The position numbers were made by a program, and so were the translations under genes. 64,000 nucleotides of DNA from Massiliimalia massiliensis (GTDB lineage Bacteria; Bacillota; Clostridia; Oscillospirales; Ruminococcaceae), in the NCBI RefSeq assembly GCF_900155615.1, contig NZ_FUHT01000002.1, forward strand, positions 434,001 to 498,000, in the 5' to 3' direction. The notes beneath the pieces are model-generated. The model ran no database searches. It was not told the origin of the DNA and worked only from the letters and a program-made list of their open reading frames with translations. This document shows, in pieces, positions 22,506 to 37,551 of this stretch; within the stretch, counting starts at the first letter, position 1; every line of letters starts with the position of its first letter.

Positions 22506-22932
22506 TTATTTCTGAAAAAATCCCACCGAGTGAATAATATGGTCTCGTTTCGGATCAAGGTTGAACAATTCCCGGTCTGTCAGCATGATCTCCCGCTGAA
22601 TAGAGAAATATCCGTACCGTTCCCGTAAGGGTTCTACCTGGTCGGTATAGTCGGAATAGATCTCCTTTGCCATTTGAGAGAACTGGAGATACTTGTCCTA
22701 GTGGGGCGGGGGCAAAGATGATGTCCGGGTATTTCTGCTTGGCGAACCACAAGGGATCGCCGGTCTGTACGCCGAAGGCTTTGGCTTCATAGTTCTTGGC
22801 AAGGACGATTCCATGCCGCTGCTCCGGATCGCCTGCGGCTGCCATAGGCTTTCCTCTGTATTCCGGGTGGTAAAGGCTTTCTACGGAAGCATAAAAGTTA
22901 TTCATATCACTGTGCAGTATCACCCGATTCAT
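22506..22932 (-). pseudogene. DNA polymerase IV (DinB/UmuC) remnant
   Basis: The N-terminal 80 codons carry the Y-family polymerase signature (ILHSDMNNFYASVE, residues 5-18) and KNYEAKAFGV. A frameshift near 22698 ends the frame early. In another frame YLQFSQMAKEIYSDYTDQVEP follows, then an internal deletion joins to the C-terminal tail (YFSIQREIML...IIHSVGFFQK) ending at 22506. No catalytic palm survives, so it is inactive. Confidence 0.85.
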
Positions 22933-23474: not shown

Positions 23475-24899
23475 TTACAGCCTGCGCTGTTTTTCTATGT
23501 AGAGTTGGTACAACCCCATGCGGGATTTTACCCCCGCTTTCTCATAGATAGATGAGATATATCGCTGACAGGTTCGCCGGGACAGATATAAGCCATCTGC
23601 GATCTCCTGAATGCTTTCCTCCGAATTGACCAGCTTATCGAATACATCGATTTCTCTGGGAGTAAGGGCAAACAGGTTCGATAGAATACGGAATGCTTCC
23701 TGGGGATCCAAATCTGCCGGGATATCCTTGGGTGCGCCGGATGCTGCCGGCAGCCAGGCTGAGTATAGAGAGATTACTATGCTGACAGCTACAAACAGTA
23801 CCAGTGCCAGAATGATAGACGCCATACCATTGCTGTCAGAGACAAGCAGCGCTACAGAGACGTTGGCAAACAAAGCGGCGCTCACGTTATTCATGGCGCG
23901 GCCCATACCCGCCCATAGCGCCGGTGTCTGCATATGACAGGCAAAATCCAGAAAGCTAGTAGTGAAGAATACCGCAAAAAATCCGGCTGAGAGATAGAAT
24001 ACAACTAACCCGATCAAAAACGGGCCGCCCAGTTTGAGTACCACCACACAGATGACAGACATCAGCATGACGCAGTACATCATCATCGCCATATATTTCC
24101 GTTTCCGGATATCGAAAAGGAAACCGGCAGCCAGGCCGCTTACCGCCAGCAGAAGCCGCGGCCATTGCCCGATGTCGGCACCTGCCGCATGATGCATAGT
24201 GACCGCGTTATCCAGCGTGCTGAAAATACACGCCATCAGGAGCACAAGCAGTGCCAGAAAACCTCCAGCGGCTATCTTTTTCCGGTTTGCCCTTACGTCC
24301 TCTTTTACAGGAAGCGGGCGCTTTTCAGCTTCTGTGGTCTCCGGACCGAAAAGCTTCTCCGCTTTCAGTAATAGCGCCAACGTTACAATAGCAAAGACCG
24401 AAAGTATAATGGCTTCTGCAGTTTCCAGATTGATAAGATTGTTATTAAGAAATTGCAGGAATATTCCCAGTGCATAGGAGATACCAACTACGCATGCCAG
24501 GTGGTCACGATCCTCTGCCAGTTTGAAAAACAGGTAGTGAGCCGCACTCCCCAATAGCCCCAGAGACAGGAATAAAGCCATTCCGGAGAGCAGAGTGGAC
24601 AAATACGAAACATGCTTCTGAACTCCCCAAATGCATACAACCGCCGTCAATGCAAGGATAAAAAGCCCAACGATTTGTGCCCGCTTTTTCAAAAAACGAT
24701 GAAACAACGGATACAGTAAAAAGCCAATGGCGCTTACTCCTAATGCGTAGTTTTGTGCGAGCACCGTTTTTTCTTCCCCAGCCGTAAGCGAGATCCTATT
24801 CACATACAGGTACTCGATTCCAAGGAATAAAAAGGTAAAAATACCAAGCAGCAGAATAGCGTAAATGGATTTTGGTTTTGTAAAGACTTCTTTTATCAT
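23475..24899 (-). CDS. Membrane-anchored LuxR-type regulator (MFS-like 12-helix domain)
   Basis: A 474-residue protein with about twelve membrane helices over residues 10-385 in an MFS-like pattern, followed by a C-terminal LuxR/GerE helix-turn-helix (about 405-470: FALTPREIDVFDKLVNSEE, QEIADGLYLSRRTCQRYISSIYEKA). This fusion is known from gut Firmicutes and Eggerthellaceae as a class of membrane-embedded transcription regulators; the signal sensed is unknown. The start has GGAGG twelve bases upstream. A perfect 12-bp inverted repeat overlaps its -10 region. Confidence 0.9.
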   Translation of the reverse strand: MIKEVFTKPKSIYAILLLGIFTFLFLGIEYLYVNRISLTAGEEKTVLAQNYALGVSAIGFLLYPLFHRFLKKRAQIVGLFILALTAVVCIWGVQKHVSYLSTLLSGMALFLSLGLLGSAAHYLFFKLAEDRDHLACVVGISYALGIFLQFLNNNLINLETAEAIILSVFAIVTLALLLKAEKLFGPETTEAEKRPLPVKEDVRANRKKIAAGGFLALLVLLMACIFSTLDNAVTMHHAAGADIGQWPRLLLAVSGLAAGFLFDIRKRKYMAMMMYCVMLMSVICVVVLKLGGPFLIGLVVFYLSAGFFAVFFTTSFLDFACHMQTPALWAGMGRAMNNVSAALFANVSVALLVSDSNGMASIILALVLFVAVSIVISLYSAWLPAASGAPKDIPADLDPQEAFRILSNLFALTPREIDVFDKLVNSEESIQEIADGLYLSRRTCQRYISSIYEKAGVKSRMGLYQLYIEKQRRL

Positions 24900-25198: not shown

Positions 25199-25714
25199 TT
25201 AGTAGGTGATGTTATGGGCGTAAAAATAGATCAGCAGGCCACCCAATCCAGCGCCGGTTATCATGCATGCCCACGTCCAGAATAAATACAGCAGAAGTCC
25301 CAGGAAAATAAATACGCAAAACACCACAATAAAAGCATCTTTCTGGAAGAGCATGATGTATTTGATACAGGCGATCACAATACCCGCTATCATGACGAGA
25401 GATCCCAGAAGGGCGAGAACGAAAACATATACTCCCGCCATCTGGAGAATTGCGATCAGGATATTCCATCCAAGACCTATTCCTGCAATCAGGCTGCCTA
25501 TTTTAATGAGGCTGTCCCGTGATATGCTGAATGCTCCAAAAAAACAGGCTGCGAGCAAGCCGTTGGAGGCAATGTTCAGTATGTTCACCATAATGACCGA
25601 TTCCGTGCTTATGTAGTATGACGTGGAAACTACCAGGCTGATGATTGCGGTGAGAACCGTAAGAAACCCTCCTATTGCACCAATAAGGTGGTACTGCCTT
25701 AACCTTGAATACAT
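25199..25714 (-). CDS. Six-helix membrane protein, unknown
   Basis: About 171 residues with five or six membrane helices and no catalytic motif. The start at 25714 (MYSRLRQYHLIGAIGG) has AAGGGG seven bases upstream and is preferred. The frame stays open to an ATG at 25822, which would add a charged 36-residue cytoplasmic N-terminus (FTDRRLARTQNVIKSSG) but lacks a ribosome site; the longer form is not excluded. Family not recognised. It is read away from the FHA/kinase island. Confidence 0.65.
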   Translation of the reverse strand: MYSRLRQYHLIGAIGGFLTVLTAIISLVVSTSYYISTESVIMVNILNIASNGLLAACFFGAFSISRDSLIKIGSLIAGIGLGWNILIAILQMAGVYVFVLALLGSLVMIAGIVIACIKYIMLFQKDAFIVVFCVFIFLGLLLYLFWTWACMITGAGLGGLLIYFYAHNITY

Positions 25715-25837
25715 GCCATATCCCCTTTCTGATACTGCGTCTGTGATAAGCTGGCCAGAGCTTTTTATGACATTCTGTGTCCTAGCCAGCCTTCTATCTG
25801 TGAACTTTTCGTTTTTTATCATAACAGGAAGCCTGTG

Positions 25838-26053
25838 TTATTGATAGGCCGCTTCAGCGCCAAACTGAAAAAAACCGTGGCGCACCTGTGCCATTTCGGA
25901 AAAAACAAGCTTTGAATTGCAAAAACCGGATAACAAAACCCCGCTGATCATGAAATCTTGCCGGGCGGTAAGATGAAAACCCACGTTCTGTACTTCCCCT
26001 GCAAAAAAGTTTGTGAACTTCAGGCAAAACGATGGAATCAGCCCATCTGCCAT
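25838..26053 (-). CDS. Possible small protein, unknown
   Basis: A 71-codon frame starting MADGLIPSFCLKFTNFFAG with AAGGA six bases upstream, ending just before the upstream ATG option of the membrane-protein gene. No domain is recognised. It may be a real small gene of the same leftward unit or a chance frame. Confidence 0.3.
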   Translation of the reverse strand: MADGLIPSFCLKFTNFFAGEVQNVGFHLTARQDFMISGVLLSGFCNSKLVFSEMAQVRHGFFQFGAEAAYQ

Positions 26054-26116
26054 AACCGACCGATCCTTTTTATACACTCAAGACTGTCTTTCCCTTGGAT
26101 TTTTGCGTAAAAAACG

Positions 26117-26179
26117 GATTGGCGCAGATGCGCCCCATGATTCTTTGTAAATTGGCGCGAAAGCGGCCTGCACAAATCC
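26117..26179 (+). repeat. 63-base upstream element, copy A
   Basis: Matches 26781-26843 at 60 of 63 positions. It contains a GGCGCA..TGCGCC inverted repeat (26121-26134) and a second GC-rich block GGCGCGAAAGCGGCC. It ends 118 bases before the lipoprotein start. Shared placement ahead of two genes of the same island suggests a regulatory site or structured leader; no known riboswitch class was recognised. Confidence 0.7.
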
Positions 26180-26297
26180 TTAAAAAAACGATACGATAGA
26201 ACCGTTAAAAAACAGAGATTTGACTTTTTGTGTCAAGAACTAAGCACCAGAGTACTATCCGAAAAACAACTCAGATCACAACAGGAGGAATGAGCGG

Positions 26298-26747
26298 ATG
26301 AAAAGAAGAATGGCGGCGGTGCTTCTGGCTGTAATGTGTGTTCTGGCCGGATGCGCACCCTCAGACAGATCGCTTCGAGTCTATTGTACGGAAAACCAAA
26401 AGGAATTTCTGAATCAAACGCAGGAAGAACTGCCGGCAGAGTTGGTCTTTCATTATTGGACGGAGACGGCGGCAAGCTACCGAACGACGAATGATGAGAT
26501 TATCTCCGGGATCCTGCAGGCGTTAAGGGAAGCAACAGTCGTATCCAAGTCTTCCGTCCGTTCTACAGACAACCGGATCCTGGAGTTTGTTACGGCGGAA
26601 GGGGATACCTGCAATTTCGGGTTTGATGAACGAAAGTTCAGAGGAGCCGATGAGGAGTGCTATGTTCTTTCCGGTGATGATGAGCTTTGGAAACTGGTAT
26701 GGGAGATCAGGGAGTCGGATCCGGAATATCAGGATCTGATAAGATAG
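26298..26747 (+). CDS. Small lipoprotein, unknown
   Basis: A 149-residue protein with a signal peptide and lipobox (VLAGC), so an outer-face lipoprotein. The mature part is acidic and shows no recognised domain. The start has GGAGG nine bases upstream. It opens the rightward signalling island and is preceded by element A, a near copy of which precedes the FHA gene, so it is likely controlled with the island. Possible ligand or sensor partner of the kinases; that is inference. Confidence 0.75.
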   Translation: MKRRMAAVLLAVMCVLAGCAPSDRSLRVYCTENQKEFLNQTQEELPAELVFHYWTETAASYRTTNDEIISGILQALREATVVSKSSVRSTDNRILEFVTAEGDTCNFGFDERKFRGADEECYVLSGDDELWKLVWEIRESDPEYQDLIR

Positions 26748-26780
26748 CTGTATTTTCCCGAGATTGCCGCGAAAAATGTA

Positions 26781-26843
26781 GATTGGCGCAGGTGCGCCAC
26801 ATGATTCTTTGTAAATTGGCGCTAAAGCGGCCTGCACAAATCC
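26781..26843 (+). repeat. 63-base upstream element, copy B
   Basis: Near-identical to copy A at 26117-26179 (3 differences). The palindrome is kept as GGCGCAGGTGCGCC. It ends 87 bases before the start of the FHA gene at 26931. Similarity is weaker on both sides (AT-rich AAAACGATAC follows both). Confidence 0.7.
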
Positions 26844-26930
26844 CTCAAAAAACGATACAGTAAAAACGTAAAAAGTCCAGGAATGGATTTGGACAGCCCT
26901 TAATAATTTGATTTTAGGAGGAAAACGATC

Positions 26931-27470
26931 ATGAAACAATGCGACAATGGCCATTTTTACGATGAAAACAGATTTGACAGCTGCCCCTACTGTCAGGAGG
27001 GCGCCGGAATCGGAAAGACGGTAGCGGCCAGTTCGGTGGGGAAAACCGTGGCAGCAGTACCAGGAGGCGCTGCGCCGGAAGCGGACAGAGGCAAGACGGT
27101 GGGCATCATCAAAAAAAAGATCGGCATTGATCCTGCGGTAGGATTTCTGGTGTGCATTTCCGGTCCCCATCGCGGCGCAGATTACAAGCTGGTGGCAGGA
27201 AGAAACTTCATCGGCCGGGCGGCGGCGATGGATGTGGCCTTGGCGGATGACGACACCGTGTCCAGGGAAAGCCATGCGCTGGTGACCTATGACGCAAAGC
27301 ACAACAGCTTTTCCCTTTCTCCCGGTCAGGGCAGGGGCATCACTTACTGCAACGACGAACAGGTGGAAATGGTGCGTCCCTTAAAAGCCTACGATGTGAT
27401 CGAGGTTGGCAAGAGCCAGCTCCTCTTTCTGCCTCTGTGCGGAGATAAATTCCAATGGAATGAGGAGTAA
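26931..27470 (+). CDS. Zinc-ribbon FHA-domain protein
   Basis: A 179-residue cytoplasmic protein. The N-terminus has a zinc-ribbon-like set (CDNGH, then CPYC: C4, H8, C18, C21). A Gly/Ala-rich linker with three repeats of a GKTV motif follows, and an FHA domain fills the C-terminal half (about 75-175), with the phosphothreonine-binding residues in FIGRA and SRESH. The GKTV repeats contain threonines that could be kinase targets. It begins the operon PP2C-protease-kinase with a 3-base gap to the phosphatase gene; the start has GGAGG eight bases upstream. Confidence 0.85.
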   Translation: MKQCDNGHFYDENRFDSCPYCQEGAGIGKTVAASSVGKTVAAVPGGAAPEADRGKTVGIIKKKIGIDPAVGFLVCISGPHRGADYKLVAGRNFIGRAAAMDVALADDDTVSRESHALVTYDAKHNSFSLSPGQGRGITYCNDEQVEMVRPLKAYDVIEVGKSQLLFLPLCGDKFQWNEE

Positions 27471-27473
27471 GGG

Positions 27474-28397
27474 ATGGAGCATGTACTTTCATGGTTAAGC
27501 AAGCCGCTGTTTCCGGACACCTTCATCCGCATCTGGATGGCAATTGCGGCAGGAGCTGTGCTTCTTTTAACGCTGATCCTTGTCTTTGTCCTGATACGAC
27601 GGAAAAAGAAGCGAGGTGCTAAAGCGGTGGAAGAACCGATTACGGAACGCCCGGAACCGCTGCCGGAGCTGGAACTTGCCAACCTCCAAGGCGTCGGCAG
27701 CCGGGAGGAACAACAGGATGCTTTCGGCATCTCCCGTATGAATCGTTATGAAGAAGACGGCCTGCTCGCTGTACTGTGTGACGGTATGGGGGGCATGGCG
27801 GAAGGCGGCATGATTGCGGCGGAAACTGCCTCCGAGCTTGTGGGGATTTTCCCTTGGGCGGATGACAGCGATATCCCCGGCTGGGCATCCCAACGCAGCG
27901 CAAGGGTCTACCAGCAGTTTCGGGGACACGGAGGAACAACCCTTGTGGCCGTGCTGCTCAAAGGAGCTCGTCTTTCTTTCTGGTGTGTAGGTGACAGCGA
28001 CCTGTTCCTGCTTAGGGAAGGCAAACTCTACGGGCTGAATATCCGGCAGGAATATAAGAATGAACTGGTGCTGCGGGCATTGGACGGAGCTTTTCCTGTA
28101 GAGGAAGCGTTTTACGACCCACAGGCAGGAGCCCTTTCGGAGTACATAGGCAAAGAAGAAGTGAAATGCGACTATAACCGCATGCCCTTTTCCCTCCAAC
28201 CGGAAGATGTACTGCTGCTCTGCTCGGACGGGGTAAGCGACACCCTGACCTTAAAGCAGATCCGGGAAGCTATGGCGCTGTCTCCACAGGTATGCTGCGA
28301 CAAGCTGGAAGAGGAGATCCTGGCGGCAGGCAAGCCGGGTCAGGATAACTATACGGCAATCGTATTGAAATATCACGGTAAAGGAGAAAAAGAATAA
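27474..28397 (+). CDS. Membrane-anchored PP2C-type Ser/Thr phosphatase
   Basis: A 307-residue protein with one membrane segment (about 21-42) and a PP2C catalytic domain. The motifs are QQDAFGIS, CDGMGG (metal aspartate), GGTTLVAVL, LLCSDGVSDTL and GQDNYTAIVL, so all metal ligands appear intact. It should remove phosphates added by the kinases at 30041 and 32671. It lies four bases after the FHA gene and is followed directly by the protease gene, so the three are translationally coupled. Confidence 0.9.
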   Translation: MEHVLSWLSKPLFPDTFIRIWMAIAAGAVLLLTLILVFVLIRRKKKRGAKAVEEPITERPEPLPELELANLQGVGSREEQQDAFGISRMNRYEEDGLLAVLCDGMGGMAEGGMIAAETASELVGIFPWADDSDIPGWASQRSARVYQQFRGHGGTTLVAVLLKGARLSFWCVGDSDLFLLREGKLYGLNIRQEYKNELVLRALDGAFPVEEAFYDPQAGALSEYIGKEEVKCDYNRMPFSLQPEDVLLLCSDGVSDTLTLKQIREAMALSPQVCCDKLEEEILAAGKPGQDNYTAIVLKYHGKGEKE

Positions 28398-29711
28398 ATG
28401 GAAACAAAAAAAACACCACGGAAGCAAGTCACAGCCATAATTTTGCTGGTTGTAGGATTGGTTTTTGCCGTGTTCGGCGTATTGGGTCTTGCAGGCGGGG
28501 GTGGCACAGACCCCTATGAGACGCGCAACAGCGTCGTCATGGTGTACTCCTATCTTCAGCTTACTGACGGTCAGTCCGCCGGTGCCATGGGTACTGGATT
28601 TGCCATCGGGAAACCCGGCGAACCGGTGGAATACATTGTGACCAACGGCCATGTGGTGGAATACGGCTATATGGGCCCGAAAACATATCAGGGAGAAGTA
28701 TCTTCGGCAGGTGTACAGGTATACTTCTCCGCAGCGGAAAACGATTATGTTACAGCAGAGGTGGTCTATTACTCCTCCTTCGACGACAAGGATATTGCGA
28801 TTATCAAGCTGCCGTCGCCGACGGATAAGCGCGACGCGCTTGCCATTAAAGATTCCGATGCGGTTGAAATCGGCGATACCGCCTTTGCTCTGGGATATCC
28901 TGGCGTGGCGAGCGACAGCTCGCAGTTCAACACCTATGATAAGGATGATATTACACTGACCAAGGGAATCATCAGCAAACGCACCAAGCCGGTATGGAGC
29001 AACTACGACGCGTTCCAGATGGATGTATACATCAATCACGGCAATTCCGGCGGCCCGCTGGTAGATGAAAGCGGCTTCCTGATCGGAATCAATTCTTCCG
29101 GCGCAGTGGATGAGCAGGGCAAGAGCGAAGGCGTAAACTTTGCTATTACCTCCGCAGAATTGACCAAGATACTGGACAGCGAAAATATCAAATACACCAT
29201 GGCGGGCGGCGGACTTTCCTGGGCCCCGTCCTGGTTTGCCTATGTGTTCCTGCCCATCGGCGTGCTTGCGCTGGCAGGCGGCATCATCCTGCTGGTAATG
29301 TCCCAGAAGAACGGACAGGGCGTCCCAGCGGTTGCCGATGCAGGAGCGAACAAAGCGTCTGCCAGGGGCGGCCGCGGTTCTGTAGGAAAACGCGCTGTGC
29401 TGCGGGGCGTGACAGGGAAATATGCGGGCCAGAGCTTTGATCTCTTGAAGGGTAAGGTGGTCATCGGCCGCGATCCGGCGGCCTGCAACATTGTATTTGA
29501 TAAGAATGCGCCGGGCATCAGCGGACGGCATTGCCAAGTGGACTACGACCCGAACGAAGACTGCTTTATCATCACCGATCTGGGCTCCTCTTATGGTACG
29601 TTCTTAGGCAACGGCAAAAAGCTGGCGGCCAATGTGGCGGAAAAATTGTCTGCCGGGGATACCTTCTACCTGTGCGACAATGCCAACCGATTTGTAGTGA
29701 GCAAGGAGTAA
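28398..29711 (+). CDS. HtrA-like serine protease with transmembrane link to FHA domain
   Basis: A 437-residue fusion. It has a membrane segment (11-33), a trypsin-like domain (about 40-265) with H85 (TNGHVVE), D132 (DKDIAI) and S217 (GNSGGP), a second membrane segment (about 277-297) and a C-terminal FHA domain (about 335-437) with the GRDP and SGRH motifs. Both membrane segments put the protease outside and the FHA domain inside. That arrangement would let a cytoplasmic phosphothreonine signal act on an outer protease, or the reverse. No PDZ domain is seen, unlike standard HtrA. Confidence 0.88.
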   Translation: METKKTPRKQVTAIILLVVGLVFAVFGVLGLAGGGGTDPYETRNSVVMVYSYLQLTDGQSAGAMGTGFAIGKPGEPVEYIVTNGHVVEYGYMGPKTYQGEVSSAGVQVYFSAAENDYVTAEVVYYSSFDDKDIAIIKLPSPTDKRDALAIKDSDAVEIGDTAFALGYPGVASDSSQFNTYDKDDITLTKGIISKRTKPVWSNYDAFQMDVYINHGNSGGPLVDESGFLIGINSSGAVDEQGKSEGVNFAITSAELTKILDSENIKYTMAGGGLSWAPSWFAYVFLPIGVLALAGGIILLVMSQKNGQGVPAVADAGANKASARGGRGSVGKRAVLRGVTGKYAGQSFDLLKGKVVIGRDPAACNIVFDKNAPGISGRHCQVDYDPNEDCFIITDLGSSYGTFLGNGKKLAANVAEKLSAGDTFYLCDNANRFVVSKE

Positions 29712-29717
29712 CCCATT

Positions 29718-30044
29718 ATGGCAGGTTATTGCTTGAAAAATGGAAGAATCCAGGAGGCGTGGGGGGATGATGCCGCCGGCCAGAAACTGGCGGCTGTCTT
29801 CCACCTGGCTGCGGACGGTGAAATGAAGGAACTCAACGAAATTCCAGCGCTGTCGGAAGGTGAAGGAGTGCTGGCATATGCGGGCGAGTTCTATATTGAC
29901 CCCCTGGAAGTACAGGTTGAATTTCTAAAAGCGGCCAATGCGGAAAAATGGCTGGAGGCGCTGGTCTTGCGACATACCGACCGGGCGCGGCAGGTATCAG
30001 GGGATCTCTTCGTCCTGGCCGAGATCAAGGAGGTGGACGCATGA
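29718..30044 (+). CDS. Small acidic protein of the signalling operon, unknown
   Basis: A 108-residue cytoplasmic protein of no recognised family, beginning MAGYCLKNGRIQEAW. It starts 6 bases after the protease gene and overlaps the kinase start by four bases (ATGA), so it is cotranslated with the kinase. A regulator or substrate of the kinase would fit the position. Composition is rich in Ala, Glu and Leu. Confidence 0.75.
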   Translation: MAGYCLKNGRIQEAWGDDAAGQKLAAVFHLAADGEMKELNEIPALSEGEGVLAYAGEFYIDPLEVQVEFLKAANAEKWLEALVLRHTDRARQVSGDLFVLAEIKEVDA

Positions 30045-32293
30045 ATCCGGAACGTGTTTGTTATGGCTGTTTTGCGGAAAAAGAACCTGGTAAATTTTGT
30101 ACCAAGTGTGGATTTAATGAAAATGACGAACAGCCGTATCTTGCGCTGCCGCTGGGAACCATCTTGAATGGAAGATACCTGGTGGGAAAGGTGCTGGGCA
30201 TCGGCGGGTTCGGTATCACCTATCTGGGATACGACCTGACGCTGGAAATCAAGGTTGCGATTAAGGAATATATGCCCTCCGCATTGGCCACGCGGCATCC
30301 CGATCACTACAGCGTGGCGCTGACCGGGCGGGTGGAACAGGATTTCCAGTATGGCATGGAGCGCTTTTTGGATGAAGCGAAAATTCTTGCCAAGCTGCAG
30401 AGCACCCCTCATATCGTGTCGGTGCAGAACTATTTCAAGGAAAACGGCACTGCCTACTTCGTGATGGAATACATAGACGGCATGAGTCTGAAAGCGTACC
30501 TGTCGAAAAACGGGGATAAGATCCCCTGTGACCAGGCGATAGCCATTCTGCAGCCGATCATGGAGGCATTGATACAGGTGCATGCGATGAACCTGCTGCA
30601 CCGGGATATCAGCCCCGACAACATCTATATCACCGCCAAGGGCGAAAGCCGGCTGCTAGATTTCGGTGCGGCGCGGTTTGCGCTGGGTGATGGCAAGAGC
30701 GTGTCGGTCATCTTAAAGCATGGCTATGCGCCGGAGGAACAATATTCCAGCCACGGTAATCAGGGCCCCTGGACGGACGTGTATGCTATGGGCGCTACCC
30801 TGTACCGCTGCATTACCGGGCAGCTTCCGCCGGATTCGGTGGAGCGCATTCATGGGGACGCTATGAAAACACCGTCAGAGCTGGGATTTCGTATCTCGGC
30901 CCATGTGGAAAACGCCATCATGAAAGCGCTGGCGGTAAAGACCGAAGATCGTTTCCCCAACATGGAGGCGTTCATCAGCGCACTGAGCGGCCGCGTTTCC
31001 GTACAGGATCAGGTGGCGGCCAGCATCAGCCAGCGTACCCAGGCCACCGCATACGGGAAAGGAGGCTATGGGCAGACTGCCTATCAGCAGCCATCCTATA
31101 GCGCCGATGGCTCTGCGGCAGGAAAACCCTCCGTGTTTTCCAGGCTGCTTTCCTATATGAAAGCCAATCCGATTGTCGCCTGGGTTTCCGGAGGCGGGCT
31201 GTTGGCGGTAATCGCCCTTTGTATTATACTCCCCATCGCGCTCTCCGGCGGAGGGAAAACAACTCCGGCAGGAGGAAACGGCGGCGGGAATACTCCCGTT
31301 ATCAGCCAGTCGCCGGCAAGCGTGGAACCCAGCGATCCGGGAACGACAACAGAACCTTCAGCGGGAATGGTGAAGCAGGATCTTGGCATTCTCAATGCTA
31401 CCATTGAAATTCCGACAGATTATACGGCGTCTGAGGATGGGTTGAACTTTATCAATGAGGATAAAGGCTGCGCTGTCATGACGGACTATCTTTGGAATAT
31501 TGACGGTCCGATCTACTCTCTTGCCGACGTGGAATCCCAGCGGGAAGCAATTGTCACGAAACTGATGCAGGATCTGGAGGTTTCAGACTATCAGATCTTA
31601 GCGGCTGGCCCTGACCGGGTGGGAAATTCGGAAGCCTATCAGATCTACTTTGAAGGCACTGACAGCGAAGGCGTTTCTATGGAGATGATCGTCATGGCAG
31701 TAGGCGGATACGAATTTGGCTGTTATTTCATCATCACTGCCTATCCCAAGGGAGATGAAGCTGCCGAAGCAGAGATTCATTCCATCATCCAATCCTTTCA
31801 GAGTAACGGTATGCCGGAGGTGACCTATAAGGCTTACTATGCGGAACGTGCCGGAGTTAAGGTCATCATAGACGAGTCCTCTGCGCAGGGTGGCGTAGCA
31901 GATATGGAACTTGAGTTGAATATGAACGGCATCGGAACCGTCCATGAGATGTTCCTGTACCCTACTCAGGAAGACAGGAATGCCGCAGTGGGGCAGGGTT
32001 TCGCTGTGGAGATCGGCAAGGCTTCTGAATTCGGCTTGAGTACGCCGGAAGAAGTGATTGAATACAACAAGAACGTAAGCGGTACGAACAATGAATCCTA
32101 TACCTTCTCGTCCGGCGGCGTGGAATGGCTGGCCTATGACTTTACGATGGGCGGCAAGAATTTCAGCTATTCATCGGCTGTAATTGACGGCGAGTGCTAT
32201 CTTGTGGGCTGTGTGTTCAATGATTCCAACAAGGACGCGATAGTTGCTTTATATAATCAGGCCACCGCGTCTCTCCGCGCTTGGGCAGGGTAA
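30041..32293 (+). CDS. Transmembrane Ser/Thr protein kinase with zinc ribbon (kinase 1)
   Basis: A 750-residue kinase. It has a zinc ribbon (C7, C10, C20, C23), a kinase domain (about 45-315), a membrane segment (about 378-401) and an ectodomain. Key residues are the G-loop GIGGFG, K75, HRDISPDN (H187-N194), DFG (207-209) and GYAPEE. The catalytic-loop lysine of HRDLKPxN is serine here. The ectodomain lacks PASTA repeats and is related to that of kinase 2. The ATG at 30041 has GGAGG seven bases upstream; upstream in-frame codons overlap the preceding gene and are not used. Confidence 0.9.
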   Translation: MNPERVCYGCFAEKEPGKFCTKCGFNENDEQPYLALPLGTILNGRYLVGKVLGIGGFGITYLGYDLTLEIKVAIKEYMPSALATRHPDHYSVALTGRVEQDFQYGMERFLDEAKILAKLQSTPHIVSVQNYFKENGTAYFVMEYIDGMSLKAYLSKNGDKIPCDQAIAILQPIMEALIQVHAMNLLHRDISPDNIYITAKGESRLLDFGAARFALGDGKSVSVILKHGYAPEEQYSSHGNQGPWTDVYAMGATLYRCITGQLPPDSVERIHGDAMKTPSELGFRISAHVENAIMKALAVKTEDRFPNMEAFISALSGRVSVQDQVAASISQRTQATAYGKGGYGQTAYQQPSYSADGSAAGKPSVFSRLLSYMKANPIVAWVSGGGLLAVIALCIILPIALSGGGKTTPAGGNGGGNTPVISQSPASVEPSDPGTTTEPSAGMVKQDLGILNATIEIPTDYTASEDGLNFINEDKGCAVMTDYLWNIDGPIYSLADVESQREAIVTKLMQDLEVSDYQILAAGPDRVGNSEAYQIYFEGTDSEGVSMEMIVMAVGGYEFGCYFIITAYPKGDEAAEAEIHSIIQSFQSNGMPEVTYKAYYAERAGVKVIIDESSAQGGVADMELELNMNGIGTVHEMFLYPTQEDRNAAVGQGFAVEIGKASEFGLSTPEEVIEYNKNVSGTNNESYTFSSGGVEWLAYDFTMGGKNFSYSSAVIDGECYLVGCVFNDSNKDAIVALYNQATASLRAWAG

Positions 32294-32670
32294 CTTGTAA
32301 AGACTTGGGCTGCCTGCGGCATATTTTACTGCGGCCCTATGCCTATCGAGATTTTGGAACCATTCGCATTCATATAATGGCCGTTCCTGATCGGGCAGAA
32401 AACAATGGCTTTATTCCCATAGCCCGTCTAGTGCTGTTTTTAATGCGAAATGGGAAGGAAGCGGCGCCGCTTCGAATACTTGTGGTGATGGCTGTATTTG
32501 TAAGGTGTTACTAGTTTTCGCGGCGCTACTTTTATTAGTTTGACTGGTTTGTCGCCTTCGCCTTTTTTGGCAGCTTCCGGTTTGTGGTCGCTATACTGCT
32601 TTCCTTGGCGCTGATAGATGACCGGTTGCGTCGAGGTTTAGCGGGAAAAAACAGAGAAGAGGAGCGAAAC
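32294..32670. other. Gap between the two kinase genes
   Basis: About 375 bases without a supported gene. The reading frame of kinase 2 stays open to 32584 but without a ribosome site. No strong terminator or promoter was recognised, so kinase 2 could be part of the same transcript or have its own weak promoter. Confidence 0.45.
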
Positions 32671-34812
32671 ATGAACTTAGAACATATTTGCTATGGCTGC
32701 TTTCGGGAAAAGCCGGGCGGTTCCCTCGTCTGCCCATACTGCGGCTTCCATGCAGAAGAGGAACAGCCATTTTTAGCGCTGCCCATGGGAACTTTGCTGA
32801 ATGGTCGCTACATGATCGGCAAGGTACTGGGCGTGGGCGGGTTCGGCATTACCTATCTGGGCTATGATCTTACGCTGGAGATCAAGGCAGCCATCAAAGA
32901 ATATATGCCCTCCGGCCTTGCCACCCGGCATTCTGACAAGTACAGCGTAGCGCTGACCGGACGGGGGCAGGCGGATTACCAAAGCGGCATGGAGCGCTTT
33001 CTGGATGAGGCGCGGATTCTTGCCAAACTGCAGAACACACCGAATATCGTGTCGGTGCAGAACTACTTTAAAGAAAACAACACGGCGTATTTCGTGATGG
33101 AATACATCGACGGCATGAGCCTGAAGGCATACATTGCCTCCCAGGGCGGAAAGATCCCTTACGACCAGGCCTTAACCATTTTGATGCCAGTGATGCAGGC
33201 GCTGACGCAGGTTCACGCCTTGAACCTGACCCATCGGGACATCAGTCCGGACAATATTTCCATTACATCCAAAGGAGAGAGCAAGCTGCTGGATTTTGGC
33301 GCGGCCCGGTTCTCCATCGGGGACGAAAAAAGCGTGTCGGTCATCCTGAAGCATGGCTACGCGCCCGAAGAGCAGTATTCCAGCAAGAGAAACCAGGGGC
33401 CCTGGACAGATGTGTACGCAATGGGAGCAACTCTATACCGCTGCGTGACCGGGGAACTGCCGCCGGATTCCATCATGCGGGTTCATAACGATACGCTGAA
33501 AAAGCCCTCTGAACTTGGAATTTCTCTTCCTCCGTATGTGGAACAAACCATCCTAAAGGCACTTGCGGTGAAAGCGGAAGACCGTTTCCCTACCATGGCG
33601 GCCTTTATTGAAGGACTTACAGGGAAAAATCAGGTGCATTTCCATCACCGCACCACGGCTGCGCCGACCGGTCAAACGGCGGGAGGCTCCGGAGAAAGAC
33701 AGTGGCTTTGGACAAAGCTTCGCAATAAACCTCTAGGTGTACGTATTCTGGCTCTGGCACTGTGCATCACCGTGATTGGACTGGGTGTTTGGAAAACGGT
33801 AACGGGTATCGGCACTTTGATAGGCGTGGAGTCCAAGCGAAATTCCGATACTCCCGTGATAGCGTTACAGGAACCCGAGGGTGTAGACGATGTTTCCTTG
33901 CAGGACTACAGCCAGGACTATCTGAATATCACCATGGGGATTCCCGAGGGGTATATTGAGACAGAATCCGGCAGCGGCGCCTTTGCTTCATCGGATGGAA
34001 ATGTCACTTTGCAGATCGGGTTTTACGACCAGGCCGCCGGTTTCCCAGTTTATACCCTTGCTGATGTGGAGAAAAATGCAGAGAAGTACGTTCAGTATTA
34101 CATCGGGCTTTTGGAGAGCACCAATATCACAAAACAGGAAATCATAGGCCGGGATTACCGGGAGATTGGATCTCTTAACGCCTATCTGATCCAGTTTTCC
34201 GCCACCGAAAGCGGCGGCACGACCATGGAGTTTCTGGCGGCGTTCATCGAATGCCAAAATGGGTTTGGCTGCTACAACCTCATCGGTTCCTACCCCCAGG
34301 GCGATGAGGCGGCAAAGGCAGAAGTTTTCGCAGCTTTGGATTCCTTTCGAAGCAACGGATCTGCAGGAACCATCTACCAGCGGTTTTATGATGAAAGGCT
34401 TCCCTTCCAATTCCTCTACTGGGAAAACGAGGGTGAGATTGTGTTCAATGTAATCAATGAAAATCGGCTGGAGATGAGCAACAGCACCAGTAATATCGGT
34501 ATGGAGGTACATTGCCAGCCCTTAAGCGATACGCAGACTAAGGAAATCTGGTTGGACGCTTTGGCTGAAGAATTGACCAATGAATCTGGCGTTGAACCGC
34601 GCGGAGAACGTTGGCAAAGTGAAAGCGGCGGGATCGACTGGGCCGTTGATGGGTACACCATAACCGAGGAGGGACAGACTTCCTATATAGATGTTTACGG
34701 CGGCGAGTTCGATGGTTATGTGTTTCTAGTTTTGATAGCTGCGGAAACAGAGGATGGCCTTTTCGATGGAATGCTGCTGGATGTGACCAACACGATTCGT
34801 CCCGTGGAATAG
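32671..34812 (+). CDS. Transmembrane Ser/Thr protein kinase with zinc ribbon (kinase 2)
   Basis: A 713-residue paralogue of kinase 1 in the same domain order: zinc ribbon (C7, C10, C21, C24), kinase domain with GVGGFG, K76, HRDISPDN and DFG, a membrane segment near residue 385, and an ectodomain. As in kinase 1 the catalytic-loop lysine is replaced by serine. The kinase halves are highly alike and the ectodomains share the YTLADVE and YPQGDEAAKAE-like segments, so a tandem duplication with faster change outside is likely. Start ATG at 32671 with GGAG six bases upstream. Confidence 0.9.
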   Translation: MNLEHICYGCFREKPGGSLVCPYCGFHAEEEQPFLALPMGTLLNGRYMIGKVLGVGGFGITYLGYDLTLEIKAAIKEYMPSGLATRHSDKYSVALTGRGQADYQSGMERFLDEARILAKLQNTPNIVSVQNYFKENNTAYFVMEYIDGMSLKAYIASQGGKIPYDQALTILMPVMQALTQVHALNLTHRDISPDNISITSKGESKLLDFGAARFSIGDEKSVSVILKHGYAPEEQYSSKRNQGPWTDVYAMGATLYRCVTGELPPDSIMRVHNDTLKKPSELGISLPPYVEQTILKALAVKAEDRFPTMAAFIEGLTGKNQVHFHHRTTAAPTGQTAGGSGERQWLWTKLRNKPLGVRILALALCITVIGLGVWKTVTGIGTLIGVESKRNSDTPVIALQEPEGVDDVSLQDYSQDYLNITMGIPEGYIETESGSGAFASSDGNVTLQIGFYDQAAGFPVYTLADVEKNAEKYVQYYIGLLESTNITKQEIIGRDYREIGSLNAYLIQFSATESGGTTMEFLAAFIECQNGFGCYNLIGSYPQGDEAAKAEVFAALDSFRSNGSAGTIYQRFYDERLPFQFLYWENEGEIVFNVINENRLEMSNSTSNIGMEVHCQPLSDTQTKEIWLDALAEELTNESGVEPRGERWQSESGGIDWAVDGYTITEEGQTSYIDVYGGEFDGYVFLVLIAAETEDGLFDGMLLDVTNTIRPVE

Positions 34813-34846
34813 AGGATAGCGCATTCCCGGGAGAAAGGAGAAAAAA

Positions 34847-35158
34847 GTGCTGAGTTTGAAAAGAAACATCAATTGTCCCCGGCGTATGGCTGTATATGCC
34901 ATCTTCGATGTGTTGGATCGGATGGGCAGCCAATACGAGCAGGCGATGGCCGGCGATATCAAGGCGGAGGCGAATGTGTTGGGGCATACCAGTGAGTACG
35001 CCTTTGCCGTGACGGAGCAGACCGTCAACACATCGATCCTCCATGTTTCCATGCTCCGTCCGGCAAGCGGCCTGACTGAAAAGGAAAAACAGCTTGCGGT
35101 ACGCTATCTGATGGACAGCGTGCTCCAGCATATCGATGAAGTACAGGCTTCAGAATGA
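34847..35158 (+). CDS. Small protein after kinase 2, unknown
   Basis: A 103-residue cytoplasmic protein starting at GTG (34847) with AAAGGAG six bases upstream. No known domain; the N-terminus is basic and the rest helical (DVLDRMGSQYEQAMAGDIKAE). It lies 34 bases after kinase 2 and is probably cotranscribed. Role unknown. Confidence 0.6.
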   Translation: MLSLKRNINCPRRMAVYAIFDVLDRMGSQYEQAMAGDIKAEANVLGHTSEYAFAVTEQTVNTSILHVSMLRPASGLTEKEKQLAVRYLMDSVLQHIDEVQASE

Positions 35159-35194
35159 GGAGACAACCAAGCTGTCCTCACTCCGCATTTTTGG

Positions 35195-35476
35195 GTGGCA
35201 GAATTTTCAATGTTCTGGATGTCGGTTTTGCAGATGTATAGGAACTCTATGTCTCCCACGCTCGATAAGGGAAATATTGTGGCTTCAGGAAAGGGTTCAG
35301 ATTTTCACTCTGGAGAGTTTGTAGCCTTTTATATCGGCGATAAGCTTTTGGTAAAGAGATGCATTGCCGACCCGGGGGACTGGGTGAATATTTACGAAGA
35401 CGGAAATGTGTATGTAAACAATGAACTGTACGATATACTCGCAAAACGGCCATTTTTGCTTGGCTTGAGAGTATGA
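35195..35476 (+). pseudogene. Signal peptidase I (S26) N-terminal remnant
   Basis: About 90 codons with the signal peptidase catalytic serine segment NSMSPTLDKGNIV and the lysine segment LLVKRCIADPGD. The transmembrane N-terminus is reduced and the C-terminal boxes (GDN, SxDSR) are absent because the frame stops. The opening GTG at 35195 lacks a clear ribosome site. It may be a broken specialised signal peptidase of the island. Confidence 0.65.
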
Positions 35477-35793
35477 GGACATAGGAAGCGGCGAGGCTGT
35501 CAGCTCCGCCGCTTCCTGTTTTTCCCGGACAACCAAAAAGACGACCTCTCAAACTGCTTGATCAGTTGTTTTTTCTATATCTGGTTATTTGTTTAGAAGC
35601 TATTATATTAAGATTATATCATTTAAAAACCTTGATTTTCCATCATGCGCTGAAAAAAGCGGTATCAGCTTTTGCCAATACCGCTCCTCAAACTAGTTAG
35701 AAATCATTTCATTTAAAATGATTTCTTCTATCTGTTGTTTAATGCAATTCATTTTCCTTGTTCACTCAACGGGATTATCTTCTTATAAGTATC
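35477..35793. other. Gap with two hairpins
   Basis: A stretch with no gene. It contains a hairpin with arms AGCGGTAT/ATACCGCT (35658-35665 and 35678-35685) and a perfect 11-bp stem at 35699-35709/35716-35726. They lie between convergent units and probably end them. Confidence 0.6.
35699..35730. terminator. Hairpin between the island and the toxin-antitoxin pair
   Basis: Arms 35699-35709 and 35716-35726 pair over 11 bases around a 6-base loop. It is AT-rich and followed by short T-runs on either strand, compatible with a weak two-way terminator. Confidence 0.5.
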
Positions 35794-35997
35794 TCAAATG
35801 CCGTTGTCCATAAATTCCCCTGTGAGCCACGGACACCTCTGCGGCATCAGTTCCAATGAATTCGCAGCCTTTTCAAATTCTGCCGTCAGCCGTTCTGCCG
35901 CTTCTGGGCTGACCTGTGCCAGAAATGCAGCGTGGGAAACGAGCATTTGAGCTGCCCGTTCCGATACAATCACACCATATTTATTCCGCCGTTCCAT
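35794..35997 (-). pseudogene. RelE/ParE-type toxin, C-terminally truncated
   Basis: A 67-codon frame (MERRNKYGVIVSERAAQMLVSHAAFLAQVS) resembling the N-terminal two-thirds of ParE/RelE toxins, ending early at GEFMDNGI before the C-terminal strands that carry catalytic residues (typically YRKLLFEKRYLIIY). The start at 35997 with AAGGAGG overlaps the antitoxin stop by 17 bases, the usual coupling. Probably inactive. Confidence 0.65.
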
Positions 35998-36268
35998 GGC
36001 CAGCCGCCTCCTTGATTGCACTGCGCATCATCGCAGCGACTTCATCAACAGAGCAGCCTTCGCTGCCGCGCCTCCTGTCCTCCTCGACCGCGAGCAGTTC
36101 CTCACGGAGTTTTAACATCTTTTCCCGCCTGGAAAAAGTTTCTATGTCCATCACAACGAGATCGCCTTCCCCATTCTTGGTTAAAAAAACCGGTTCTCCA
36201 CTTTTTTTACATAAATCTGATATTTCATTATAATTCTGGCGTATTGCCGCCGATGGGCGAATCGTCAT
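35981..36268 (-). CDS. Phd/YefM-family antitoxin
   Basis: A 95-residue DNA-binding antitoxin. The N-terminal Phd/YefM fold is visible (IRPSAAIRQNYNEISDLCKKSGEPVFLTKNGEGDLVVMDIETF) and the helical C-terminal tail would neutralise the toxin. It precedes the truncated toxin gene in a two-gene operon and would repress its own promoter at 36303-36331. Confidence 0.85.
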   Translation of the reverse strand: MTIRPSAAIRQNYNEISDLCKKSGEPVFLTKNGEGDLVVMDIETFSRREKMLKLREELLAVEEDRRRGSEGCSVDEVAAMMRSAIKEAAGHGTAE

Positions 36269-36302
36269 AAAGCCGCCCCTTTTATAGTAATATTATACTC
36301 AT

Positions 36303-36331
36303 ATTATAACTAAATAATACTATGGTGTCAA
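36303..36331 (-). promoter_or_regulatory. Promoter of the Phd-type antitoxin gene
   Basis: Reading leftward, -35 TTGACA (36326-36331), 17-base spacer, -10 TATAAT (36303-36308), both perfect. An imperfect inverted repeat (ATAGTATTAT and ATAATATTACTAT) overlaps it and is a probable operator. Confidence 0.75.
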
Positions 36332-36498
36332 ATAGTAATCAAACCTTCATCTTTATATTTTGCAAATCAAAATCTCCACTTAGACAATATGGTTTGTTGA
36401 GGCTTTATCAGATCTAAGATTTTTCAGTTGTACGATTTTTTATACAACCGAAAAGGACTCCTTGCTTTTCCGGAGATCCTGATTGGGGCGTTCTAAAG

Positions 36499-37551
36499 CT
36501 AGATTGCTTTATCCTTGATATATCCTAATTCTATTAAAATATCTTTTGTTTCGCTGGAGGTTTCAGGGGAATACGCATAAATAACAGTATTGCCTTTATA
36601 GATCACAACACTGTAAATTCCATTTTCAGTCATCGCAAACATTTTACCGCCTGGAAGTTCTGCTATATTTTGGTCACGTTCTGCGGATGGAAGGCCAATA
36701 GAAATACGCTCTATAATTTGGTTAAATACCCCGGTAGCTGTCTCAGTACCATCATAATCATAAAACTCGAATTTAATATCATCCTTTGCGCCTGCGGCAA
36801 CATACATCAATTTATCTTCCTCAATAAACCAATACGACACCGGAATCTCTGCAGTTTCAAAATTTCTGTCGGTCAGGACAGTACGAACCCTTTCGCTGTC
36901 AGGTACGGCCATATGGGATATATTTCCTCCCGGCCGGTTCGTTGCCTGTTTGGGCGCTCCAGTGATGTCTGCGAGCGTTAAGTTAAATCCGATTAGAATC
37001 GTTAAAAAAACACCGCCTAACAGTGTGTAGGCAATGATATTTCTAACCTTCCGACCGCCTTTTTCCCTTTCTCGAGCGCGAGCCTGCTCCAGCATTTCCG
37101 TTGTTTCTTCATCAAGCGGATTGTTTTTGCGGTAAATCTTGCCTGCGATGAGAAGCACAAGATTTATGATAAGAAGAATGATATTTCCCCAAAACGCAAT
37201 TCTTGTCTTATCCGCATGTTGCGATATTGCCGTGTATTCAGCAAGAATCAGAGCTGCAAGTCCGGGAAGCATGCTGTATAAATAACATTGAAACAGCCTT
37301 TTAGTTTTTGGGGGATCAGAGCTTTTTTCGCTGAGATAAGCGAATATGATTCTATTTCTTCTGTTTCTCCTGCCGCTTCGTGCGTATCTGCTCCCCGCAG
37401 TAACGGAAGGCAGTCTGTGTGCTAAATCGTTTTGGATTCCCCGAAGAGTCACTCCCGAAAGATTCAGAACCTCTCTGAATATCCAAAAGGAACAGTATAA
37501 ATTGACAGGCATCATGATCACCGAAAAGATAATATTTAAGACCAATTTCAT
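36499..37551 (-). CDS. Membrane protein, unknown
   Basis: A 350-residue protein with about four membrane helices (residues 4-24, 95-112, 122-140, 175-197) and a C-terminal region of about 130 residues outside (GTETATGVFNQIIERISIG, YSVVIYKGNTVIYAYSPE). It is not part of a clear operon. Family not recognised. It is downstream of a gene-free region and upstream of a terminator. Confidence 0.7.
   Translation of the reverse strand: MKLVLNIIFSVIMMPVNLYCSFWIFREVLNLSGVTLRGIQNDLAHRLPSVTAGSRYARSGRRNRRNRIIFAYLSEKSSDPPKTKRLFQCYLYSMLPGLAALILAEYTAISQHADKTRIAFWGNIILLIINLVLLIAGKIYRKNNPLDEETTEMLEQARAREREKGGRKVRNIIAYTLLGGVFLTILIGFNLTLADITGAPKQATNRPGGNISHMAVPDSERVRTVLTDRNFETAEIPVSYWFIEEDKLMYVAAGAKDDIKFEFYDYDGTETATGVFNQIIERISIGLPSAERDQNIAELPGGKMFAMTENGIYSVVIYKGNTVIYAYSPETSSETKDILIELGYIKDKAI

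Follow-up and report, generated by a model that had tools for sequence, protein, structure and literature searches.

The stretch of DNA considered here, termed the window, is 64 kb of the 2.84-Mb genome of Massiliimalia massiliensis (99.75% complete). It carries ten co-conserved genes which, by their order and conservation, form one divergent unit that may be a mobile signalling island based on phosphothreonine (pThr). The core of the unit consists of three successive genes on the forward strand. The first (26931–27470) encodes a protein with a zinc ribbon, a linker with threonine motifs (GKTVA at T30, GKTVA at T39 and GKTVG at T56) and an FHA domain, termed ZnR-FHA; the Pfam models FHA and Yop-YscD_cpl match it above cut-off. 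The second (27474–28397) encodes a membrane-anchored PP2C phosphatase, PP2C1, with Pfam PP2C_2 and SpoIIE matches above cut-off. PP2C1 has a single hydrophobic segment at residues 16–45, ahead of the phosphatase part, and displays the motifs DGMGG, SDG and DN. The third gene (28398–29711) encodes a protein, termed protease-FHA, with a transmembrane (TM) segment, a trypsin-like protease domain, a second TM segment and an FHA domain (Pfam Trypsin_2 and FHA above cut-off). Its hydrophobic segments are at residues 7–37 and 278–304, the H85/D132/S217 triad is located between them and the FHA domain lies beyond the second. In an alignment of relatives (A3) the triad is invariant in 11 of 11 rows, and in the FHA domain G357, S375, H378, G400 and T401 are invariant and R358 nearly so. 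The residues expected at an FHA phospho-Thr site (GR, SxxH and GT type) are present, and both FHA proteins of the unit score above the Pfam cut-off.

The earlier sequence-only reading described the protease as HtrA-like and tied to an FHA domain across the membrane. The layout stands, as does the trypsin-like domain with its H-D-S triad, which together with the N-terminal hydrophobic segment resembles HtrA, DegP and MarP. Unlike these proteases, the window protein has a second TM segment and an FHA domain, and Pfam detects no PDZ domain even when E values up to 1 are allowed. The DegP model scores 93.5 bits, far below its cut-off of 416.2. HtrA-like is thus a loose label, based on Trypsin_2 and DegP matches.

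Two paralogous TM Ser/Thr kinases are encoded downstream on the same strand, kinase A at 30041–32293 and kinase B at 32671–34812. Each has one hydrophobic segment after the kinase domain and ∼335–340 residues past it, as determined by hydropathy. Both retain the properties of Hanks-type (PknB-like) kinases, i.e. the glycine loop, the lysine of VAIK/AAIK, HRD and DFG, and score 109.2 and 108.4 bits with Pfam Pkinase (cut-off 31.7). The usual Hanks catalytic loop is HRDxKPxN; this is replaced by HRDISPDN in the window kinases and in 57 of 115 cluster kinases. Kinases differ in number and length between clusters. Kinase A has a Cys-rich N-terminus and an ectodomain that is predicted to consist of two PsbP/Mog1-like halves (model pLDDT 85.8). 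In the predicted model, the first half (residues 1–146) resembles PsbP (2xb3, Z 15.2, rmsd 2.9, 142 aligned; Foldseek E 7.9e-7 to the PsbP protein 2vu4) and the second (154–305) resembles Tsi3 (4n7s, Z 11.4, rmsd 3.0, 113 aligned), with a weak match to RseB (Z 6.4). Mycobacterial LpqN and DcrB are among the same fold matches. The ectodomain is, in this model, a PsbP/Mog1-like fold. By Pfam, motifs and hydropathy, the named genes are at the places that the sequence-only reading gave them, and the kinases, PP2C and protease have the catalytic motifs it ascribed to them.

The gene order of the core is conserved phylogenetically. When protease-FHA was used as the query against 120 relatives, 109 matched, mostly through the protease part alone. 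Where regions of 15 relatives' genomes were opened, 11, as well as the window's own genome, have protease-FHA, ZnR-FHA and PP2C genes; among these 11, L044 has no kinase on its short contig and L046 has a degenerate protease. Eighty loci were then mapped, the best 80 of at least 186 confirmed, chosen by protease-FHA similarity in a scan of named genomes; 58 have a protease-FHA gene on the map and 22 do not. The order ZnR-FHA, PP2C1, none or one gene, protease-FHA, all on one strand, is found in 46 of these 58 loci and the strict order is missing from 12. Open reading frame (ORF) calling in the mapping was crude, and L036 and L044 were scored without the core order although their PP2C gene exists. 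ZnR-FHA, a membrane PP2C and a kinase are each present within the mapped stretch in 52 of the 58, and a second PP2C in 49. The loci are mostly from Oscillospiraceae/Ruminococcaceae, Lachnospiraceae and other Clostridia, and many of the Clostridia records are from gut and rumen samples. Differently ordered sets are found on one acidobacterial contig (L126) and one Thermodesulfobacteriales contig (L130). Among the loci listed, the nearest protease relatives are in L056 (66%), L057 (54%) and L058 (44%). The sequence-only reading had proposed a search for the same gene order in other Clostridia; partial clusters of unrelated order were not the outcome. Recurrence of the order in other species excludes, on the grounds of synteny, chance assembly of the cluster.

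FHA domains read pThr and not phosphoserine. Many ZnR-FHA linkers display repeated [KR]T motifs, e.g. GKTVA, GRTAP and KTMPP. In 53 linkers from pattern-matched loci (the window, L056, L057 and L058 are not in this sample), Thr follows 116 of 272 K/R residues, compared with 27.7 on average after shuffling (sd 4.6, max 38), a control that overstates independence since the linkers are related and repetitive; Ser follows 10. When redundancy is reduced to 41 linkers, there are 63 [KR]T motifs versus 16.8 expected (sd 3.7, max 32 in 1000 shuffles) and seven [KR]S versus 11.7. At least one [KR]T is present in 39 of the 53 linkers and at least two in 26. The Thr/Ser ratio of the linkers is 1.55, versus 0.83 in other proteins >250 aa of the same loci. 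The window linker, which is outside the sample, has three [KR]T sites, at T30, T39 and T56. This bias toward Thr over Ser is what pThr reading predicts, and it is the best sequence evidence for both writing and reading of pThr.

The limits of the unit were determined by map comparison with L152 and L153, the island loci in G268 and G364, which are genomes of another genus (g55). There the order is a LuxR gene and a membrane protein gene on the reverse strand, then on the forward strand a lipoprotein gene, ZnR-FHA, PP2C1, protease-FHA, a short PP2C2, two kinases and a gene for a 103-aa protein termed u103. Small extra genes are interspersed, and a second lipoprotein relative is found past the LuxR gene. 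The comparison places the left edge of the window unit at 23475, such that a divergent LuxR-type regulator and a membrane protein are included. The sequence-only reading began its rightward unit farther right and missed both genes as well as the palindromes described below. It also counted a broken signal peptidase among the companions. This truncated signal peptidase I (S26) piece (35195–35476, forward strand) covers only positions 19–100 of the 168 of Pfam Peptidase_S26; it has no counterpart on the L152/L153 maps, and it was rejected as an island component and judged to be outside the unit. Also rejected was the idea that a decayed copy of the extra small membrane genes of L152 is present between the window kinases: tblastn revealed none, and at the DNA level the only matches, of 59 bp and 37 bp, lie at the edges. 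G+C content is 0.48–0.54 across 26–36 kb versus 0.45 directly left and 0.42 directly right, and GC skew flips sign within this region. No Rfam element is found at the gathering threshold in 25800–36600.

All ten unit genes show dN/dS values of 0.04–0.26 (NG86, versus L152), which indicates purifying selection; ZnR-FHA has 0.04. Island proteins share 60–95% identity with their G268 counterparts (lipoprotein 59.7, ZnR-FHA 95.5), and IlvC is 67% identical between the two genomes. AsnB is 52% identical at best, but it has several paralogues per genome and its G002 match is weak, and therefore the argument for mobility rests on IlvC. In three genomes of the same genus as the window (IlvC 86–96% identical), searches found neither u103 nor a full-length protease-FHA. 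The comparison with IlvC and the absence from these three genomes point to horizontal movement, and the island has probably moved between genera.

Between the protease gene and kinase A there is a 108-aa protein (29718–30044, forward strand), one of two small proteins that the sequence-only reading listed as unknown. Pfam finds nothing on this protein, on u103 or on the 207-aa membrane protein. In 46 of the 58 protease-FHA loci, however, a PP2C of ∼240 aa, PP2C2, directly adjoins the protease gene. A profile of nine PP2C2 proteins, with the window protein left out, finds the 108-aa protein at E 8e-7 in a search space of one sequence; of the eight proteins tested, those other than it and PP2C1 have E values of at least 0.049 or are not listed. 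The match is to the C-terminal part of PP2C2. The first half, including DGLGG, is absent and the SDG and DN motifs are replaced, such that the metal-binding residues are missing. Short forms of PP2C2 are at the same place in L056 (60%), L057 (49%), L058 (32%) and L152/L153 (83%), and dN/dS of the fragment is 0.20 versus L152. Judged from motifs and selection, this protein is a degenerated, catalytically dead phosphatase fragment that has been retained, and the label unknown does not hold for it.

The regulator at the left edge (23475–24899, reverse strand, divergent to the kinase operon) has a C-terminal GerE helix-turn-helix (HTH) and an MFS-like N-terminal part that looks multi-TM (10–12). 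GerE is above the Pfam cut-off; MFS_1 reaches 22.6 bits versus a cut-off of 33.4, and about ten hydropathy segments are separable. The protein is 84% identical to that of G268 and syntenic in L152/L153. There is no second full-length match in its own genome, the other hit being to the HTH region (E 4.4e-4). LuxR proteins of the same layout are described, in the available text, as activators of adjacent operons in Eggerthella lenta (PMC9734109). The gene for the 207-aa multi-TM protein (25199–25822, reverse strand) is the first one left of the palindrome-bearing intergenic region; it is syntenic and 73% identical in L152. The 149-aa lipoprotein (26298–26747, forward strand) has a signal and a lipobox-like Cys, as judged by eye. 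Relatives of it are found just in the two g55 genomes, where there are two copies each with 57–60% identity, and none is found at E < 1 in 92 other loci searched.

Three operator-like palindromes are associated with these upstream regions. The first (TGGCGCA-CC-TGTGCCA, 25878–25893) adjoins the 207-aa gene, the second (26120–26135) is upstream of the lipoprotein gene and the third (TGGCGCAGGTGCGCCA, 26784–26799) is upstream of the ZnR-FHA operon. The palindrome GGCGCANNTGNGCC has exactly three sites in the 2.84-Mb genome, at window positions 25879, 26121 and 26785. L152 and L153 carry it in the three corresponding intergenic regions, and the bases that flank it are conserved too. Genome-wide, G268 has five sites and G364 eight, the three island sites included. 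Eight other genomes were searched; there are no sites in G001, G003, G181 and G356 and two each in G002 and G200. An extra perfect palindrome in G268 was considered as a fourth upstream site and rejected, as it sits within an ORF. The second and third palindromes lie in a 127-nt direct repeat, whose copy 1 (26084–26210, forward strand) precedes the lipoprotein gene and whose copy 2 (26748–26874, forward strand) precedes the ZnR-FHA gene; the copies are 82% identical and the repeat is partly conserved in L152/L153. A sigma-70 scan of the region found 13 matches versus 15.1 expected, and no promoter is claimed. The palindromes are taken as operators, to which the LuxR protein may bind.

The last gene of the unit encodes u103 (34847–35158, forward strand), the other small protein formerly listed as unknown. 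It has a predicted helix-grip/KA1-like/BamC-N-like fold (model pLDDT 93.8), the best matches being to BamC-N (Z 13.0, rmsd 2.3, 98 aligned), KA1 and START. These matches seem to reflect a common arrangement from which a functional assignment would not follow. The protein is conserved, with matches in 16 of 396 family genomes, its own included. A LuxR gene of the island kind, or pieces of one, is present on the mapped stretch in 10 of the 14 mapped u103 loci (the window, L056, L057 and L152–L162), and five loci with u103 and LuxR (L157–L161) have no cluster-type kinase within the stretch mapped. Accordingly, u103 is linked to the LuxR regulator more than to the kinases. In L157, L159, L160 and L161 a LuxR gene of the same kind and u103 are near large TPR membrane proteins (L157 was scanned) and secreted-looking proteins without Pfam hits above cut-off. 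Of seven proteins scanned in operons beside u103/LuxR elsewhere, TPR is above the Pfam cut-off in one and below it in one; the other five have nothing above. Perhaps these four loci represent another type of operon associated with this regulator family.

Neighbour proteins in related clusters display FHA domains on other membrane proteins. Among 20 scanned with Pfam, PrsW-FHA proteins were found in L075, L102 and L109, an RDD-FHA protein in L036 and a vWA-FHA protein above cut-off in L102; matches in L091, L036 and L075 are below the vWA cut-offs. A PrsW-like protein was also seen in L046, by eye only. The clusters thus appear to share a theme, an FHA socket on varied membrane effectors.

These data suggest that the unit is a mobile pThr signalling island for the cell envelope, a reading to which a probability of about 0.5 is assigned. 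What the sequences provide is three upstream regions that share a palindrome, two kinases, one PP2C and one protease that all retain their catalytic motifs, a pair of FHA proteins and, across the ZnR-FHA family, linkers with a Thr-specific motif array. The earlier proposal of one unit with parts to write, erase and read pThr, plus an outer protease, is upheld by the conserved order of the genes, by purifying selection, by the upstream elements they share and by the Thr motif array. The parts of the mechanism that we infer are sensing and DNA binding by LuxR, the activity of the kinases, docking through FHA and gating of the protease. The membrane LuxR protein would sense an envelope or environmental cue, bind the three palindromes and activate the kinase operon together with the genes for the lipoprotein and the 207-aa membrane protein. 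The two TM kinases may sense the envelope via their PsbP/Mog1-like ectodomains and phosphorylate threonines, the putative first targets being the kinases themselves and the [KR]T motifs in the linker of ZnR-FHA. ZnR-FHA would read these marks by docking to itself or to partners in the manner of GarA/OdhI. The TM protease may dock its cytosolic FHA domain onto a phosphorylated partner, and this could cluster, position or gate the trypsin-like domain outside. The membrane PP2C would reset the system, and the dead 108-aa fragment is probably a scaffold or a competitor in phosphatase/substrate contacts. The transcriptional switch would set whether the module is made, and the pThr switch would couple the inside to the outside protease, the presumed output of the system.

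A broader interpretation is offered tentatively and with less confidence. In this interpretation the island belongs to a largely undescribed, mobile class of trans-envelope signalling devices. Effectors in the membrane (trypsin-like protease, the intramembrane protease PrsW, vWA, RDD) would each present an FHA domain on the inner side as a plug-in pThr socket, and one kinase/PP2C set could gate changeable outward effectors. The window version would be under a LuxR switch and would have kept a degenerated phosphatase as a regulator.

Several observations weigh against a pThr signalling island of this form. The LuxR gene, u103 and short PP2C are present in few loci, and most clusters have other surroundings. 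The palindrome is also found elsewhere in other genomes, with 10 sites in G183 and 14 in G011, whereas nine other mapped loci (L056, L057, L058, L154 and L157–L161) do not have it. Eight of these nine have u103 and seven have a LuxR relative or pieces; among loci examined, the palindrome is therefore confined to the window and the g55 island versions. Two of the three palindromes are flagged as terminator-like hairpins as well (26784 on the forward and 26134 on the reverse strand), and what suggests a link between LuxR protein and palindromes is their position and co-conservation. As regards the linkers, 14 of the 53 have no [KR]T. Control sequences display some excess also: kinase juxtamembrane stretches have 77 [KR]T versus 53.3 (sd 6.9) and 46 [KR]S, and pre-FHA stretches of the protease proteins have seven [KR]T versus 2.5 (sd 1.5) and five [KR]S. 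Lastly, six of 73 proteins mapped as protease-FHA have no His or no Ser motif by pattern, some perhaps being misassigned, and proteolysis is not universal.

This last finding bears on whether the protease domain is an output at all. It may instead be a receptor or anchor, with a trypsin fold that serves to bind envelope peptides and an FHA domain that relays the signal inward to the kinases, catalysis being secondary or lost. The six exceptions fit such a role, and they include one copy each in L065, L109 and L115, which have two protease-FHA genes each, one without a catalytic motif by pattern; there the second copy looks as if it were a retained pseudoprotease. Moreover, vWA, a binding rather than a catalytic domain, is among the further partners to which FHA is tethered in the clusters. 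The receptor role is nevertheless considered unlikely, as the triad is intact in the window and in every aligned row, and 67 of the 73 proteins have the His and Ser motifs (the Asp-motif pattern is strict, so losses were counted for His and Ser alone). The patchy occurrence and probable horizontal movement of the island also bring to mind anti-phage defence, i.e. a kinase cascade that answers infection as the PD-T4-6 or MADS kinases do. Both kinases match the PADLOC PD-T4-6 and mad6 models, with NCBIfam MAD6 far below cut-off. These matches are at the level of the kinase domain, however, and PASTA-kinase and lanthionine-synthetase models match as well. Moreover, an outward protease and ectodomains seem ill-suited to intracellular phage sensing, and Pfam recognises no nuclease or toxin among the proteins of the unit. 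A defence role is improbable.

A cluster with a kinase, a PP2C, an FHA reader and accessory envelope parts has the same logic as the threonine phosphorylation pathway of type VI secretion (T6SS), as far as the available text of two papers describes it (PMC3953482, PMC5995506), and the vWA and PrsW partners in relatives would also suit control of a secretion or pilus apparatus. The genome, however, has no match to VipA/TssB (PF05591) of T6SS, with an E. coli control that matched, or to WXG100 (PF06013) of type VII secretion, with controls that matched; one marker family was tested for each. Among 28 neighbour proteins scanned in related loci, no secretion-machine family is above cut-off except Yop-YscD_cpl, which matches the FHA domains themselves; other secretion systems were not searched for. 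There is little reason to favour such a role. The best NCBIfam score of the kinases is with the PASTA-kinase model NF033483 (160.8 and 162 bits), which might indicate a housekeeping PrkC/PASTA-type sensor of the cell wall with rearranged neighbours. These scores are below the 450-bit cut-off, and Pfam finds no PASTA domain in either kinase. The genome has a separate PP2C–kinase pair at C2 ∼698 kb and a PASTA kinase at C2 ∼937 kb, and the three same-genus genomes lacking u103 and a full-length protease-FHA in searches also speak against housekeeping. In its strict form this explanation is refuted, and in any looser form it is very improbable.

The pThr signalling island has parts in common with several known systems. 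The mycobacterial PstP-FhaB-FhaA-RodA-PbpA-PknA-PknB operon combines kinases having a PASTA ectodomain with a PP2C and FHA proteins; unlike the island, it is not known to include a protease-FHA or a ZnR-FHA. GarA/OdhI of Actinobacteria are small FHA proteins with N-terminal kinase Thr sites, the pThr being bound by the protein's own FHA domain, according to the available part of that source (PMC5448819). The ZnR-FHA linker resembles this N-terminal Thr switch, but the protein has a zinc ribbon and, in place of a single ETTS motif, several [KR]T repeats, and is encoded with membrane kinases, a PP2C and a TM protease. Relative to the T6SS PpkA-PppA-Fha/TagQRST pathway, the island differs in having two kinases, an FHA domain fused to a TM protease and a LuxR-type regulator, with no VipA match in the genome. 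The ArnA-ArnB system of archaellum regulation in Sulfolobus comprises a zinc-finger FHA protein, a vWA protein, kinases and a phosphatase (PMC6509490, in part), and relatives of the island also have vWA-FHA proteins. ArnA-ArnB is, however, archaeal, its zinc finger is of the RanBP2 type and the available text mentions no protease (PMC6509490). The 10–12-TM E. lenta regulators DadR, HcdR and CadR have a multi-TM N-terminal domain and a C-terminal LuxR HTH, and are encoded beside the genes they control (PMC9734109). Those regulators, in the text available, control metabolic enzymes, whereas the island LuxR gene adjoins a kinase-phosphatase-protease operon and has a u103 partner.

FHA domains on membrane enzymes are already in print as PrsW-FHA and VanZ-FHA fusions (PMC3482391, PMC12419801), and PrsW-FHA is also present in relatives of the island. 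The available parts of these reports give fusions only, with no kinase-PP2C cluster and no trypsin-FHA. The sequence-only reading held that the combination had not been described as a system. Searches of the open-licence literature that were aimed at the combination found no description of a trypsin-TM-FHA reader in a conserved kinase-PP2C cluster, of a retained dead PP2C fragment or of the LuxR/palindrome arrangement, which is weak evidence for their absence from print. The parts themselves are known families.

Reading of pThr by FHA domains controls cytosolic enzymes and secretion machines. To our knowledge, little is known of the outputs of Ser/Thr kinases in Clostridia. If the proposed mechanism is correct, a conserved system that joins the reader, by way of a membrane span, to a protease on the outside would represent a novel means of trans-envelope signalling. 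Both the palindrome with its three copies and the linker with its Thr repeats lend themselves to direct tests, and the repeated pairing of FHA domains with effectors suggests that the outputs of kinases could be recognised by rule in sequence data.

Other genes were noted near the island and elsewhere in the genome. A short ORF at window positions 22555–22932 (reverse strand) resembles, by eye, the N-terminal region of a DinB/UmuC-like DNA polymerase of the Y family and is probably truncated. Just right of the island (36499–37551, reverse strand) lies the gene for a 350-aa protein that has hydrophobic segments and that no Pfam model matches at E 0.001. Outside the window, at C3:306000–325900 (L048, 5361–13847), Pfam reveals a ubiquitin-like conjugation locus with ThiF/E1, a fusion of E2 (UQ_con) and FHA, a trypsin-like protease, a prokaryotic RING/zinc-ribbon protein and JAB-LysM, and there is a kinase nearby on the other strand; the E2-FHA fusion would link pThr signalling with a ubiquitin-like system. 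At C1:426000–445900 (L049, 9600–11378, forward strand), an FtsW/RodA-type protein has an N-terminal FHA fusion.

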